Below are positions 43,475-53,776 of a DNA stretch of 64,000 nucleotides, piece by piece (within the stretch, counting starts at the first letter, position 1; each line of letters starts with the position of its first letter). The notes beneath the pieces are model-generated. The model worked only from the letters and a program-made list of their open reading frames with translations, ran no database searches and had not been told where the DNA came from. The stretch comes from Acidobacteriota bacterium (GTDB lineage Bacteria; Acidobacteriota; Terriglobia; Acidiferrales; UBA7541). The stretch is taken from the NCBI GenBank assembly GCA_003224085.1, contig QHYK01000066.1, positions 1 to 64,000 on the forward strand. The letters are read 5' to 3'. The position numbers and the translations under genes were made by a program.

Positions 43475-43587
43475 TGCGAGCGAGTAGAGGCTCAAGAAAA
43501 GGATGGAGTTTTGCCAGGACCCGGCAAGAGAGTAAGCATGAGGCCCTCTGAGGAATCTTAACCGGCGACAAAGTGTGGGGGAAAATC

Positions 43588-46500
43588 GTGGGTGTGAAAT
43601 TACGAGCAGTCTGGAATGTAGTTGGGATTGGGCTCGCTGCCGTATGCCCGCTCTTATCGGGCTGCGGTGGCAAAGGCAACGCCGCCAATGTCATCACCGT
43701 TACCATTACTTCCTCTTCCGGCATGAATCTCATTTTGGGCCAATCCACGACTCTGACCGCCACCGTGAATGGCGCGAACAACCCCAAGGTGAATTGGACT
43801 CCCGTCTGCCAGTACACCACCACGACGACCGATTCCAACGGCAAGACCACTACATCCAAACCACTCAACTGTCCGCAGGACACTTCCGTCACCCCCCCCG
43901 ACGACAATCACACGATTTTTGGTGTGTTTAGCAACCAGCAGACCACCGGAACGGAAGTCTTTACCGCTACAACCAAGTTGCCTGACCCAAAGACCTATCC
44001 AGGCCTCGTCATCATTGCTACAGCGCAATCGGTGCAAAACACCTCGAGGACCGGAACGTTCAACCTCACCCTCAACTCCGGCATCGGCATAACATTTACC
44101 CCTACCACCGCCAGCGTTCCCGTCAACGAACCACAAACCTTCACCGCTTTTCTCATCAACGACATCGGACAAACCACCGGTGTAACTTGGGCGCTGACCC
44201 AGCAAGTTCCGAATCCCACCGCCGGCTCGAACCCTAACCCGTACACTCCGCTCGCGACTTGCAGCCCGACCTGCGGCTCGCTCAATGTCCCCGACCCCAA
44301 CAATCCCAACACCGTCATCTACACCGCGCCGCCGGCTGTGCCGACCACTATTACCCCAGCGCAAACGAACAACACCAATTCGCCCGCGAACGTCACTATC
44401 TTCGCGGTGTCCAAAGCCGACCCTACGCGCTATGTCCCTGGGACGATCACCCTCACTCCTGGCGGGCCCATTACTTTCAACGGCATCTCGCCTACGATTG
44501 CCCCCCAAGGTGCCACGCTTTGGGACATTTATCTGGACGCGCCGAATATCTCATCCGCGACGACCATTACCCTGACCTACCCTGGCAATGTCCAGAGGAT
44601 AAAAAAATCGGATTCCGGGCAAATCAAAGTCCTCTTCCCGGTCCCTGCTTCTTCCAGTTCAAGCTCCTCTTCAAGCTCCACAACCTGTTCCACTACGACT
44701 CCCTGTTCCACGGGCGCGCGGCTTCGTCTCAATGCCGAGGACTTGGCCACTGCAGGGCCGGTGACCGTTTCTGTTGTGGACCCCGCCGAACCGTGCAACA
44801 CCATTGCCGCAGGGACTCCCTGCACGGCGACAGGCGCGGGGACGTTCACCATCATGCCCGTGCGTCCGACCAGCACGGCCACGGTCCCGGACGATATTGT
44901 TCAGGGCGCCCAGACGCTGAACTTTCCAGTCACCATCGACGGCGGCTATTTTGGTCCTTTTGGCCCGAATGTTACGAGCCCCAGCAATTTCATCCGGGCC
45001 TATTTTCAGTCTCCCGGAAACGACCTCTTAATTAATCCAACCAGCTCCAGTTCGCGTCAGTTGGTTACTTCGCTTCCCGCTAGCAGCATCAACCCGAACA
45101 ATCCTGGCCTCTATCCACTTTACGTTGCCAGCACCGCAAGCCCGGCTCCCACTCCTCCAAACGCTTCCGTCACCAACATAGCCATTTTCCCGGATTATTC
45201 CACCAAGGCGCCGGCCATTCCGGCGTGCTTGAGCTCGATCCCCGCGGGCACGAATCCGAGCGCTGTGGACATCGACACAGCGCTAGGTGTTTTGGTTGTG
45301 GCCGAGGCGGGTTCGCCATCGGCAACCCCCGCCGTGCCCAGCGCATTGCAGTTCTACGGCATCACGACAGTTCCTTGCTCCTCGAATCCCAGCGGGGCTG
45401 CCACAACATTGCAGCCGATCGATGGCAACGGCGCGCCTTGCACTCCGTCTGCATCACCCGCGCCGGGAAGCACCTGTCCCTACGTCAGCAATCCTGCGGC
45501 GAACTACACCATCAACGTTCCTACCGGCATTTCCGTGGATCGAACGAGTCACACGGTGGCGGTGGTCAACTACGGGGACCAGTCCGTGACTGTTTTGCAG
45601 GTTCCTGTTCCAGGAGCTACGCAGTCTGCCTTTACACCCTTCAACATAAGTCTTTCAGGAGCCTTGGAGAATTCTGTAAGTCCCGCGCCCCTTCCTTATT
45701 CCATTGGCGTGGACCCGGATTCGCATCTGGCGCTGGTAGCCTATTCTTCGACCTCCACCTCCTCTGTCGCAAACCTCGGCTTTATCGTCAATTTGAATCC
45801 AGATTCGTCAACTACGCCGAACCGTTACGGATGTCCCTTGGATCACGCTCTCACTCCGTCTTCCACCAAAGCGGGCCAATGCCTCTTCTCGCAGGTTACG
45901 CTGAACACGGGCACCTATCCGCAGGTCGCTGTGTCTTCCCATGGCCACTCGGCGCTGGTAACCCCCGGAGGATCAGGAGTAGTTCGGGAAGTTGACGTCA
46001 CCAAACCTTCCACGGCTAATCTGGTCAGTTCCGCATCGCTTTCGGGGGGAGTTGTGACGGTTGCTGTTGACACGACTCAGTGTCCGCCTGGCGTCTCGCC
46101 AACCTCATCGAGTACTAAGAATCCCTGCCCGCTTACGATGGTTCCCGGCTTTGTCGGCTCGGTGCTCATCACCGGACTAACGGCGAAAAACTCTGCCAAC
46201 AACGCCCTCTTCAATGGCGTGTTTACCGTCAGCGTTACCAGCAACAACACCTTTACCTACGCCCCTCCCAATACCACCGCCACGGACGCGTGCCAACCGC
46301 CCTCCGGGGCCACCAGTTGCGGGGGCGAAGTTTTCTATAGTCAGCCGGACCAAATTTTTGGGCTCACCAACACGTCTCAAGGGATCGCCATCAATCCCAT
46401 CACCAGCACAGCCGCCATTGCCGATGTCAACGCCACCGGCAACATCGGAGCACAAATCAACCTCCTTAGCGGCTTGGACCAATCCACATCCTCCATCCTC

Positions 46501-48333
46501 TTTTCCCCCAACTGCACTGCTTTCACCACCACTTGTTCCACAGGCTCGCCGGAACTGCTCCCGACGGCGGATGTGGCTTGGCAGCCATTCACGAATTTGC
46601 TGGTTTCCTACAATCCGCATTTGAACCAGGTCTCTATTTCTGATCCGGTCAGCCACCGGCGCTATGCTTTTGCCTGCGCAAGTTCCTCTGCCTGTCAGGT
46701 CAATCCCATCGTGTCTAGCCAGATCAGCTTGAGCGGGACAGGCACTGCCACTCTTGCGGTTCAGAACGGCACTACCAACTCGCTCACCCTCTTTGGAGGC
46801 TTGGCGGTTGATCCAGTCACCAATCAAGCATTTGTCGTCAAGTCCGGCAGCGGCGCCATCGACGTTGTCGACTTAGGCGGCGCCACTCCCGTCAAGCCCG
46901 CTCACATTTCGGAAGTAATTGTCCCCAGTCCGCCGAATGCTGGACAAGGCACCATCGGCGGCATCCCCAACGCCTTGGTTCCTCAAGCCGCGCTCACCTG
47001 CACCAATCCGACGCCACCGGCCACTTGTGATTTGCCCGGTGTAAGAATCCTCGGTTCCGGCTTTGCTTCCGGCATGACCGTGCGCCTCGACGGCGTCGAC
47101 ATCACCACCCAGGGCGGCTCAGTTGGTGCGCCCCTTAACGGCGGCCGCGAGGTCGACGTCACTATCCCGGCCTCCGCCCTCACCATGCCCCATCATTTCG
47201 CGCTCGATGTTCTCAGTAGCGGCGCACAATCCAATGCCGTCGAATTCATTGTCGTTCAGTCGATTGATCTCTCCAAAGTGTGCACGGCCAACGGAAGTCC
47301 CACCAACACCATGCCCGCTTCCGTTGCCATTGCCGACCAGATCGCCAATGGCCCCTTCTCGCCTTTTGCCTTAGTCAGCGTTACCGGCTGTAACAGTATT
47401 GTGCAGATCGACCTTAATCCCACGAGCGCCACCTTTGGGCAGCTCCTCGGCGGTCCCATCTCCGTTGGAGCTAATCCGCAGGGCATTGCTATCTGGCAGC
47501 ATCAAGGCTTGGCTGTGGTGGCCAACAACGGGGCTGGCACCGCTTCCGTCATGGACTTGACCAAGAGTCCTCCCGCCCCCGTGCTGTGCGGTTCAAATCC
47601 TTGCGGGGACGTGACCACGGGCACTAATTCAACTGGTGTGGCCATCAACGAGGCTACGGGTGCAGCCATCGTCACGAACACCGGCTCGAACACCATCAGC
47701 ATGATTAATCTCGCGCTGCTCTTCCCGCCTTCGGGTACCACTCCGCCCACAACTCTGACCGCTACCAGCATCGGCGGCGTCCAGCAACCTACCGCGGTAG
47801 CCATCGATCCCGATCGCGGCGCGAATAATCAAGGCCTGGCAGTCGTTGCCTCGATCCAATTGAGCAATGCTTCTGCTCCCAGCGGTTCCTTGACTCCGAT
47901 CGATATTGATAAAGCCCCGCCAAACATCAGCACCGCTTCCCCCGGTTTTGTCTCCAGCATCCCCACAGGCATTGTTTTCGACCCTGCCGTAGCGACTAGC
48001 ACCACGAATAGTGGCGTATTCTTCGCCAATTCCAGCGGGACGAATGCCATTACGGAGTACAACCCTGACAGCGGTGGCGGCAGCTCGGTCAGCGTGGGCG
48101 TCAACCCAACTTCTCTGGCGATCAATCCGCAGACCGGCGCCATGCTCACGGCCAACTCCGCGAGCAACACCATTTCTATCGTTGACACCATCGCAAGCCC
48201 CTTTAAGACACACCAGACTCTCGGCATTCCCGGCTCGCCCACGTTTGGCGTGGCCATTGACCAGTTCACGAATTTGGCGGTCATTGTGGATCAGGCGAAC
48301 ATGCGGGTTTTGCTCTTCCCCATGCCCAATTGA
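43588..48333 (+). CDS. Giant beta-propeller lipoprotein with Ig-like N-terminus
   Basis: The product of about 1580 residues has a lipoprotein signal with lipobox LLSGCGG. The N-terminal part is Ser/Thr-rich and Ig-like (ITSSSGMNLILGQSTTLTAT, a Big_2-like pattern). A poly-Ser linker follows near residue 365. From about residue 540 on there are many repeats of the YVTN/NHL propeller type, for example NPSAVDIDTALGVLVVAEAG, GISVDRTSHTVAVVNYGDQS, GGLAVDPVTNQAFVVKSGSG, STGVAINEATGAAIVTNTGS and TSLAINPQTGAMLTANSASN. An IPT/TIG-like domain (GVRILGSGFASGMTVRLDGV) interrupts them. GTG 43588 follows GGGGG; GTG 43573 and 43594 are alternatives. It is probably anchored to the outer membrane and binds partners or surfaces. 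Confidence 0.85.
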   Translation: MGVKLRAVWNVVGIGLAAVCPLLSGCGGKGNAANVITVTITSSSGMNLILGQSTTLTATVNGANNPKVNWTPVCQYTTTTTDSNGKTTTSKPLNCPQDTSVTPPDDNHTIFGVFSNQQTTGTEVFTATTKLPDPKTYPGLVIIATAQSVQNTSRTGTFNLTLNSGIGITFTPTTASVPVNEPQTFTAFLINDIGQTTGVTWALTQQVPNPTAGSNPNPYTPLATCSPTCGSLNVPDPNNPNTVIYTAPPAVPTTITPAQTNNTNSPANVTIFAVSKADPTRYVPGTITLTPGGPITFNGISPTIAPQGATLWDIYLDAPNISSATTITLTYPGNVQRIKKSDSGQIKVLFPVPASSSSSSSSSSTTCSTTTPCSTGARLRLNAEDLATAGPVTVSVVDPAEPCNTIAAGTPCTATGAGTFTIMPVRPTSTATVPDDIVQGAQTLNFPVTIDGGYFGPFGPNVTSPSNFIRAYFQSPGNDLLINPTSSSSRQLVTSLPASSINPNNPGLYPLYVASTASPAPTPPNASVTNIAIFPDYSTKAPAIPACLSSIPAGTNPSAVDIDTALGVLVVAEAGSPSATPAVPSALQFYGITTVPCSSNPSGAATTLQPIDGNGAPCTPSASPAPGSTCPYVSNPAANYTINVPTGISVDRTSHTVAVVNYGDQSVTVLQVPVPGATQSAFTPFNISLSGALENSVSPAPLPYSIGVDPDSHLALVAYSSTSTSSVANLGFIVNLNPDSSTTPNRYGCPLDHALTPSSTKAGQCLFSQVTLNTGTYPQVAVSSHGHSALVTPGGSGVVREVDVTKPSTANLVSSASLSGGVVTVAVDTTQCPPGVSPTSSSTKNPCPLTMVPGFVGSVLITGLTAKNSANNALFNGVFTVSVTSNNTFTYAPPNTTATDACQPPSGATSCGGEVFYSQPDQIFGLTNTSQGIAINPITSTAAIADVNATGNIGAQINLLSGLDQSTSSILFSPNCTAFTTTCSTGSPELLPTADVAWQPFTNLLVSYNPHLNQVSISDPVSHRRYAFACASSSACQVNPIVSSQISLSGTGTATLAVQNGTTNSLTLFGGLAVDPVTNQAFVVKSGSGAIDVVDLGGATPVKPAHISEVIVPSPPNAGQGTIGGIPNALVPQAALTCTNPTPPATCDLPGVRILGSGFASGMTVRLDGVDITTQGGSVGAPLNGGREVDVTIPASALTMPHHFALDVLSSGAQSNAVEFIVVQSIDLSKVCTANGSPTNTMPASVAIADQIANGPFSPFALVSVTGCNSIVQIDLNPTSATFGQLLGGPISVGANPQGIAIWQHQGLAVVANNGAGTASVMDLTKSPPAPVLCGSNPCGDVTTGTNSTGVAINEATGAAIVTNTGSNTISMINLALLFPPSGTTPPTTLTATSIGGVQQPTAVAIDPDRGANNQGLAVVASIQLSNASAPSGSLTPIDIDKAPPNISTASPGFVSSIPTGIVFDPAVATSTTNSGVFFANSSGTNAITEYNPDSGGGSSVSVGVNPTSLAINPQTGAMLTANSASNTISIVDTIASPFKTHQTLGIPGSPTFGVAIDQFTNLAVIVDQANMRVLLFPMPN

Positions 48334-51224: not shown

Positions 51225-51933
51225 TTAGACTCGCGCCATCTTCAGTGATGGTTGTGTTTTTGCGAGCGTCCGCACGACGGCGTAATGTGCCAAACCGCTG
51301 CGGTTCGCTACTCCGCTTTTTCTTAATAAGTAAGATACGTACACCTTCACTGACTGCGGTGACAGACCCATATGGGCGGCGATTTCCTTGTTGCTTTGGC
51401 CCAGGCTTACGTGGCTCAGGACCTCTTCTTCCCGCTCGGTCAGTTTTAGTTCTCTTGAATAGGGCAGCGCGGGAAGAAAACTCATGACCTTTTGAAAAGC
51501 TTTTGCATCGCACCAAGTATTTCCTTCTGCCACCGCGAAGATTGCTTTTTGCAGGTCCTTGATCGAAGCGCTCTGCTCCACAAACCCCACCGCGCCGCCT
51601 TTCAGTCCGGCAAGAAGCATCTCTAGCCGGTCCTCTCGTGTAAGCAGCAGGACAGGAGCGACGCGAGAATACTCTCGAATCAACTGCTCGAGCGCTTCAG
51701 CGTTTTTCGCGAACGTTCCGACGTCAACGAATAACCACATCCGGCTGAAGGTTTGCTTTATTCCAAGGCGGCATGACGTCAACGAATACCACATCCGGCT
51801 GAAGGTTTGCTTTATTCCAAGGCGGCATACCGTTGGAGACTGTTGTGGATAGACCGCGTCCGGAAAGAAGGGACCTTAAAGCGGACCGAAAAACAGGCGA
51901 ATCCTCAACCAAAACTACTCGAACAGTTTTCAC
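51225..51933 (-). pseudogene. LuxR/NarL-type response regulator broken by a tandem duplication
   Basis: Two frames together give a full response regulator of about 210 residues. The N-terminal frame (from GTG 51933) starts MKTVRVVLVEDSPVFRSALR, with the acidic pair of a receiver domain, and runs to VFVDV, which contains the probable phospho-acceptor Asp. It then repeats MPPWNKANLQPDVV and stops. The second frame resumes with VDVGTFAKNAEALEQLIREY and ends with the LuxR helix-turn-helix LTEREEEVLSHVSLGQSNKE, IAAHMGLSPQSVKVYVSYLL. The break is caused by the duplicated 54/55 bases at 51720-51828, where the extra base shifts the frame. Removing one copy restores the frame. The AraC-type gene lies downstream. 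Confidence 0.8.
51720..51828. repeat. Tandem duplication of 54/55 bases
   Basis: Copy one spans 51720-51774 (55 bases) and copy two 51775-51828 (54 bases). They are identical except that one copy has an extra A in ATAACCACA versus ATACCACA. The duplication lies inside the receiver domain of a response-regulator gene and breaks it. Confidence 0.95.
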
Positions 51934-52277
51934 AGGGCCCCGGGCTGGTTATATCGTACTGAGCGTACTCCTACCACTTTCGCCCGCGAATCTACTTTTC
52001 TGCTTTAACCGTGACATTCCTGTGAACCATACATTTGCACAATTGACTCCGCGCTCCAGCAGGTGCAAGGTTTAGCTAACCTATTGGCGGGGGGGAGCCA
52101 GGGGCGGGACTGGGCAAGTACTTCCCGCAGACCACTCGAAGTCGCTCCGACTACAGACGGCCCTTCCCCGATACAGAACATAGCTGGGCCTGATTCCCAG
52201 CATCTTTCCGGGCGCAGGGGGTAACGCTAAAAACTATGGAGGCATTCCTGGATGAATAACTATCCGTGTGACGAAAG
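51934..52277. other. Divergent intergenic region, nothing recognised
   Basis: The 344 bases between the broken response regulator and the haloperoxidase gene contain G-rich and C-rich stretches but no convincing promoter, terminator or RNA gene. Confidence 0.35.
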
Positions 52278-53776
52278 GTGGAAAGAAGAGCTCGCAGTCG
52301 TCGTTCTTTTTTGCTCCAGGCGGGTGCGGCGGCGGCTGTGGCTGTTGCTGCTCGCACGCTGAACCTCGAATCCACGGCAAACGCGCAATCCTCGGGTGGC
52401 TCCGGCTCTGCCTGCGAAATTGGTCCGCTCGGCGACGCGGCGCGCGCTCAAGCGTGCTTGAACCTTCGCGAGAGTGTGGCTCAAGCCGACTTCAATCAAC
52501 CGCTGGTTTCACATCCGTGCAATGGCGATGATTCCCTCTATCCTGACAAATGCGGCAGTTTCACCAAAACTTTGCCGCACGACACCTACGGTCGCGTAAA
52601 TTTGAGCGCCTACCAGAGCCTCATTAATGCACTTTCAAGCGGTAATCCCTCCGACTTCGAGAACATCACTTTGGGCGGCACGGTGAAGCTCACGAACCCG
52701 CAATCCGGTCTCGCCTATGACCTGGAAGGTATGGATGCGCACAACTTGACCGTCCTGGCTCCGCCTACTTTGGCCAGCCCGCAAATGGCCACAGAAATGG
52801 TTGAAATGTACTGGGTCTCTTTGCTGCGCGACGTTCCGTTTGATCAATACCCTTCCAACGCCATGGCTCAGCAGGCCGCGCAAGAGCCTCCATTCCGGGC
52901 AAGACTTCCTGACCACGTTCAATGACTGGCTCACCGTCCAAGACGGGGGGCAGCACCGGTATCCCGGTGCAAGTGGATCCCCAGGTCCGGTACCCGGGAA
53001 ATGGACGGGACTGGGCATCTTTCACGCATGTGGACGTTCTCTCTCAAGCTTACTTCGTGGCCCTCCTTGTCTTGATGACCATGGGCGCCCCTCCAAATCC
53101 CGGTCTGCCTTACAACAATTCGCGAACCCAAGTCGGCTTTGGAACCTTTGGCGGCGGAGACTTCGCCGGCACGCTCAACGAAGTCGCTACCCGGGCGCTA
53201 AAGTCCGTTTGGTTCCAGAAATGGTATGTCCACCGCCGTCTCCGCCCGGAGGCCACCGGAGGACTCGTCCATTTGATGAAAACTGGCCAGGGGAGTCAGG
53301 TAAGCTGCAAGCTGAACAAAACGCTCCTTTACTCCAACGCTGTCCAGCAAAGCTTCAACAAATATGGAAGCTACTTGCTCTCGCAGGCGTTCTCCGAAGG
53401 CTGCCCCACTCACCCGTCGTATCCAACCGGACACGGTACGGTTGGCGGCGCTTGCGTGACCGTTCTGAAGTTCTTCTTCAACGGAAGTTGGACTATCCCC
53501 AACCCCGTCATGCCGTCCGACGATGGCCTCTCTCTGCAGCCTTACTCAGGTCCCTCATTGACGGTGAACGGCGAACTTGCCAAAATCGCGCACAACGTCA
53601 GCTTCGGCCACGGAATCCACGCCGGCATTCACTACCGCAGCGACACCGACCAATCGTTGCTCTTCGGGGAGGCGGTTGCGCTAAGGGTCCTTCAGGACCG
53701 CGCCTCTTGCTACAACGAGAAGTTCTCCGTCTCCATCACCAAATTCGACGGAACCACCGCCACGATTTCCAACTAG
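52278..53776 (+). pseudogene. Tat-exported vanadium-dependent haloperoxidase, two frameshifts
   Basis: Three frames together encode about 497 residues. The N-terminal part starts at GTG 52278 with a twin-arginine signal (SRRSFLLQAGAAAAVAVAAR). The middle resumes near 52885 with HSGQDFLTTFNDWLTVQ, and the last frame begins near 52945 with GGSTGIPVQVDPQVRYPGNG. The C-terminal part has the vanadate pocket typical of the PAP2/haloperoxidase fold: YVHRRLRPEATGGLV, PSYPTGHGTVGGA with the active His, and HGIHAGIHYRSDTDQSLLFG. Both shifts need one extra or two fewer bases; the second lies in a run of six G at about 52944-52949. The rest of the gene is well kept, so it may be a recent break or a sequencing error. 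Confidence 0.8.

Follow-up and report, generated by a model that had tools for sequence, protein, structure and literature searches.

The 64,000-nucleotide stretch of DNA analyzed here (the window) carries on its minus strand a response regulator gene that begins with a GTG at 51933 and has a short tandem repeat in its receiver half. Its divergent neighbor, on the plus strand at 52252-53776, is a vanadium-haloperoxidase-like gene, which is also broken in the window. The features are listed below by coordinates and strand, with repeat copies named in the sense of the regulator gene and with G012, G018, and G030 denoting genomes of relatives.

51225..51719, minus strand: regulator 3′ fragment, with the second half of the receiver and the GerE/LuxR helix-turn-helix (HTH), out of frame with the start
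51720..51774, minus strand: 3′ repeat copy, 55 bp, carrying one extra base that shifts the frame
51775..51828, minus strand: 5′ repeat copy, 54 bp, equal to 18 codons
51724..51933, minus strand: regulator 5′ fragment, a 69-aa open reading frame (ORF) with a GTG start that stops just past the extra base and has no DNA-binding domain
52278..52925, plus strand: 5′ fragment of the haloperoxidase-like pseudogene, with a GTG at 52278 in frame with the fragment
52890..52945, plus strand: further haloperoxidase lesions, comprising a deletion of 179 to 182 nt near 52893 and a single extra base near 52940
52922..53776, plus strand: 3′ fragment of the haloperoxidase-like pseudogene, in a different frame, 79% identical to the G018 orthologue

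Judged by its domains and solved relatives, the ancestral gene is a NarL/LuxR-type response regulator, as the initial annotation had proposed. The GerE domain (PF00196) is matched clearly, both by the window 3′ fragment (E 8.1e-16 in Pfam) and by the intact orthologues in G018 (E 4.8e-17) and G030 (E 7.9e-17). The receiver match is weak, with PF00072 scores in these two orthologues of 29.7 and 35.0 bits, respectively, at a cut-off of 30.2. With the G030 protein as the query, solved relatives include ChrA, VraR, DevR, and NarL, and the aspartate of its VDV motif lines up with the phospho-acceptor Asp in solved receivers. At what we take to be the position of the conserved lysine of the receiver switch, the G030 sequence GFVEQS aligns with GYLLKD of ChrA and has a glutamine. 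The motif is GFVEQS in the window's own genome (G000), G018, and G030 and GFVEQN in G012, and the glutamine indicates that the receiver was already atypical before the gene broke. Thus, the intact orthologues share with NarL/FixJ (LuxR-type) regulators the combination of a receiver and a GerE HTH; they differ in their weak receiver match, in the glutamine at the lysine position, and in that no regulator model in an NCBIfam scan reaches its cut-off, while the window copy differs further in being frameshifted. Because no sensor kinase was seen with Pfam among the eight flanking ORFs or pieces of ORFs between 48493 and 57396, we term the regulator an orphan.

The near-identical 54/55-bp pair with its one extra base, noticed at first by eye, is recovered by Tandem Repeats Finder (TRF) as an array at 51720-51828 (period of 54, 2.0 copies, 98% matches, score of 211), one of two TRF rows in the 64-kb window, and its placement in the receiver is borne out. 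Common to both copies is a layout of a 14-bp block followed by a 40-bp block with zero substitutions, and the left copy as printed has an additional A between the blocks, at about 51733-51734. A 54-bp match of such quality is not chance. The 5′ copy encodes MPPWNKANLQPDVVFVDV, the last residue of which is the putative phospho-acceptor Asp. By inspection, the flanking bases on either side of the unit do not extend the match, which leaves little or no perfect microhomology for the duplication to use. Scans of the site for inverted repeats, promoters (one promoter-like site versus 0.4 expected), and terminators (two terminator-like sites versus 1.7 expected) were uninformative.

The duplication itself was initially described as breaking the gene. 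The reading frame is indeed broken at this site, but not at the duplication junction: the gene stays in register through the 5′ copy and past the junction, and goes out of register where the extra base sits in the 3′ copy. By itself, the 54-bp duplication preserves the frame, and it is a separate one-base insertion that breaks the regulator gene. Located off the junction, at a distance of 14 bp from the unit's end, the insertion is a second lesion. In place of a single open frame from the start to the HTH, the window copy has the 69-aa ORF; the 3′ fragment sits within a mechanically called ORF of 189 aa (51225-51794), whose ATG lies inside the 5′ repeat copy.

Comparison with relatives, which the initial annotation had suggested, indicates that these lesions are specific to this lineage. 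A search with the 3′ fragment covered 60 relatives together with the genome of the window, a draft of 159 contigs and 6,802,862 bp; of these 61 genomes, 58 gave some match, nearly all distant paralogues. Close matches to the regulator were found in four: its own genome, G018 (88% identity), G030 (84%), and G012 (two pieces, 84 and 80%). The regulator is present in 4 of 36 genus genomes, intact in G018 (238 aa) and G030 (214 aa) and broken in the window's genome and G012, and this count is a lower bound, as several genus genomes are incomplete (63 to 99%). A profile search of the 36 genus genomes at an E value of 1e-30 recovered 3, with the broken G012 copy falling under the cut. Scanning named genomes led to contigs of G018, G030, and G012 again. 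DNA alignment with G018, G030, and G012 revealed that the repeat unit is single copy in all three orthologues found; across the unit stretch, G018 has 9 additional bases and G030 has 3 fewer, both in frame. No orthologue has an extra base where the 3′ copy of the window has one, as evidenced by codon alignment. Given that the orthologues have neither the second copy nor the extra base, each of these features is derived in the window lineage. The G012 regulator (L054, 1578-2045) lacks 178 bp between the receiver and the HTH, which is not a multiple of three, and its break is a different lesion, independent of that in the window.

The divergent gene provides a second record of damage. Its G018 orthologue (588 aa) resembles solved vanadium haloperoxidases (phmmer E 8.5e-76 to 1qhb), and its match to the PAP2 family (PF01569) is under the cut-off. 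A twin-arginine signal model scores 20.0 bits for the G018 protein (cut-off of 16.7) and has no match for the G030 protein; the haloperoxidase-like protein is probably secreted. The gene occupies one frame in G018, in G030, and, over the 417 of 588 residues present on its contig, in G012, whereas in the window it is scattered across three frames. The ATG at 52252 aligns with the start in relatives but is out of frame, following a net deletion near the start, and meets a stop after 36 codons. The deletion near 52893 amounts to 182 nt versus G012 and to 179 nt in all versus G018 and G030, where the aligner splits it into several gaps. In contrast, single-frame matches to the window were obtained for four syntenic G018 proteins, namely an HTH_18 protein (122 of 122 residues), an aldolase (267 of 267), an OmpH protein (200 of 209), and 618 residues of a large, repeat-type protein. 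The syntenic window counterpart of the last is a repeat-protein-like ORF of 1586 aa at 43573-48333, with 68% identity across those 618 residues.

From its divergent position, the haloperoxidase-like gene is a possible target of the regulator. A link between the two outside the clade was considered and rejected, as a related regulator was found at none of nine haloperoxidase paralogue loci (L046 and L089 to L096; E 1e-4) within the stretch fetched for each, which for L092 starts 0.8 kb before the gene. In the window's own genome, contig C14 carries another haloperoxidase gene, a paralogue that is open over 614 aa and 52% identical to the G018 query.

The initial annotation also proposed that gain and loss of a repeat copy could act as a reversible on/off switch of the regulator. 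Precedent exists for the components of such a model: misalignment deletion between direct repeats is established in bacteria, according to passages of PMC4627823, and reversible sequence duplications at pneumococcal capsule loci were reported by Waite in 2001 and 2003, as cited in portions of PMC4243769. The related claim that the gene would read through with one copy fewer proved half right. Losing the copy with the extra base restores the frame; losing the other leaves the gene broken. Moreover, because of the extra base, the copies match in two separate blocks of 14 and 40 bp, and deletions through the longer block leave the gene broken. If the exchange point were spread evenly, about 14 of 54 positions would restore the frame and 40 of 54 would yield a single-copy gene that is still out of frame. 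The absence of the repeat from the three orthologues, which belong to other species, gives no sign of a conserved switch; the neighboring enzyme gene is likewise broken, and the 178 bp missing from the G012 orthologue are not recoverable by slippage. No support for a maintained switch is seen, and we regard a reversible switch as very improbable. Slightly less probable still is that the 54-bp unit acts as an active contingency element of mixed lengths in the population, with the frameshifted form as one transient state; if it did, the in-frame 18-codon form would have a modified receiver in which the phospho-acceptor segment occurs twice. Taken together, the split homology, the broken neighbor, and the different lesion in G012 form a pattern of decay.

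The duplications described in the excerpted text of PMC4243769 for pneumococcal capsule genes (the type 3 locus, cap8E, and tts) resemble the present one in being short, head to tail, within an ORF, and able to stop expression. In contrast to the capsule genes as described there, the gene here is broken by a second, one-base lesion, the duplication being in frame; its neighbor is broken as well, and the case is known from sequence only. Judged by titles and the beginnings of abstracts, a literature search yielded no tandem duplication in a response regulator receiver with a frameshift or reversion. The reports it gave were of other kinds, on a 208.6-kb duplication in Burkholderia thailandensis and on phage susceptibility, again as far as titles and opening lines tell; excerpts of PMC13410964 concern homopolymer slippage. 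The words "duplication" and "tandem" are absent from the phase-variation review PMC11868660.

Substitution patterns bear on the age of the damage. For the regulator 3′ part, private nonsynonymous and synonymous changes number 12:27 in the broken copy, 14:40 in G018, and 13:28 in G030, and the broken copy does not differ from the pooled intact ones (Fisher p 0.84). The short 5′ part gives 2:4 in G000, 9:5 in G018, 9:6 in G030, and 4:2 in G012, and the middle part of the G012 regulator, with codons past the deletion left out, has 6 nonsynonymous and 4 synonymous changes. The first haloperoxidase segment has ratios of 17:24 in the window, 6:14 in G018, 7:20 in G030, and 7:6 in G012, and the second has 34:65 in the window, 23:48 in G018, and 20:35 in G030 (window versus G018 and G030 pooled, p 0.47). 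Among private substitutions of broken versus intact copies, then, no relaxed selection was detected in either gene, and as a clock it was rejected because broken and intact copies are alike. It follows that the lesions look recent or are not real. A pseudogene with no nonsynonymous excess is expected if the break is recent, and the zero substitutions between the repeat copies agree with the original suggestion of a recent event; on these patterns, the damage looks recent, if real.

Low nonsynonymous divergence in the HTH half is also what might be seen if that half were still translated, from the ATG at 51794 or another internal start, as a working regulator free of its receiver. An ORF of 189 aa containing the GerE domain exists, and the receiver was already atypical, with glutamine at the switch lysine position in the G030 alignments. 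Against this, the start of the 189-aa ORF falls within the repeat and does not share the frame of the gene, and recency explains the conserved sequence equally well. We therefore consider a functional truncated regulator highly unlikely.

A further alternative is a local error of assembly or consensus, in which case either or both of the duplication and the extra base would be absent from cells. The genome is a draft of many contigs, the named relatives are soil metagenome scaffolds, and the broken regulator is otherwise conserved like the intact ones. A repeat length of 54/55 is also near a common assembler word length, which we counted in favor of an error. Were the extra base the sole error, the product would be a regulator whose receiver contains an 18-aa repeat in frame. 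Several observations speak against an error. A TRF scan of 1,144,726 bp, window included (17% of 6,802,862), gave 39 rows, 7 with a period of 25 or more, and the window repeat is the sole tandem in that sequence with a period of 25 to 250 and at least 95% matches. The other six have periods of about 27, 30, and 46 bp at 76 to 83% and of 276, 294, and 315 bp at 98, 80, and 94%, respectively. Among 57 contig termini of the 159-contig assembly, there was no exact edge-to-edge overlap of 15 to 250 bases. Moreover, the next gene carries different damage, including the deletion of 179 to 182 nt, and four neighbors have clean frames. A systematic assembler-overlap artifact was rejected, there being no sign of one in the part examined by the tandem scan and the 57 termini. 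The scan and the termini do not speak against a local error, which we judge to be unlikely, albeit the most serious of the alternatives.

Some observations from these scans are of interest in their own right. The repeats of 276, 294, and 315 bp lie at L072 17302-17849, L072 12346-12884, and L099 16541-17134, respectively, and their periods, all multiples of three, perhaps reflect protein repeats. A comparison of 28 termini gave inexact matches only, mostly to a dispersed repeat common to contigs C4, C6, and C17, which at the ends of these contigs (L036, L038, and L049) is about 140 to 220 bp long and 97 to 99% identical. Positions 1-163 of the window are 99% identical over 163 bp to the interior of contig C104 (2760-2922 of 3,759 bases); since the match is interior, it represents a repeat and not a contig overlap. 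The records of the named relatives are of Acidobacteria gp2 metagenome genomes, and gp2 genomes from Angelo soils were assembled with IDBA-UD or megahit, according to portions of PMC6784897.

We propose that the locus probably records the recent decay of a dispensable regulator-enzyme pair, that is, ordinary gene loss and not a genetic switch. A 54-bp segment would have given rise to a head-to-tail copy of itself, probably through slippage during replication or some other short-range misalignment, and one base, as the assembly has it, would have been inserted in the 3′ copy, so that the HTH half is no longer in frame. The expected main product is a 69-aa stub with no DNA-binding domain, and the frameshifts in the divergent haloperoxidase-like gene suggest that the pair is undergoing loss. 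Relative to intact orthologues, both genes carry disabling lesions, as pseudogenes do. The likeness to ordinary small-indel bacterial pseudogenes extends to the kinds of lesion (frameshifts, short deletions, and a short duplication), to the intact orthologues in relatives, and to the confinement of damage to one gene pair among the genes compared, and no difference from such pseudogenes was found. Furthermore, few genomes of the genus have the pair, a second genome also has a broken regulator, and the window's own genome retains another, intact haloperoxidase, all of which argues that the pair is being lost.

Some considerations weigh against this reading. A reinitiation product containing the HTH may be made. 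The regulator and the enzyme are tied together only through their position. In G012, moreover, a broken regulator accompanies a haloperoxidase that is intact over the part present on its contig, and so the two genes need not be lost together. The case for decay is built from the lesions themselves; were they assembly errors, both genes would be alive. By itself, the locus means little, as a small, clean example of the possible decay of a sporadic regulator-enzyme pair in soil Acidobacteria. It also offers a caution, in that a near-identical intragenic tandem repeat is not evidence of a switch when another lesion breaks the frame and the neighboring gene is broken. Lastly, the G012 locus has an ORF of 650 aa between the regulator and the HTH_18-like gene, which by eye has the look of a RecQ-type helicase.
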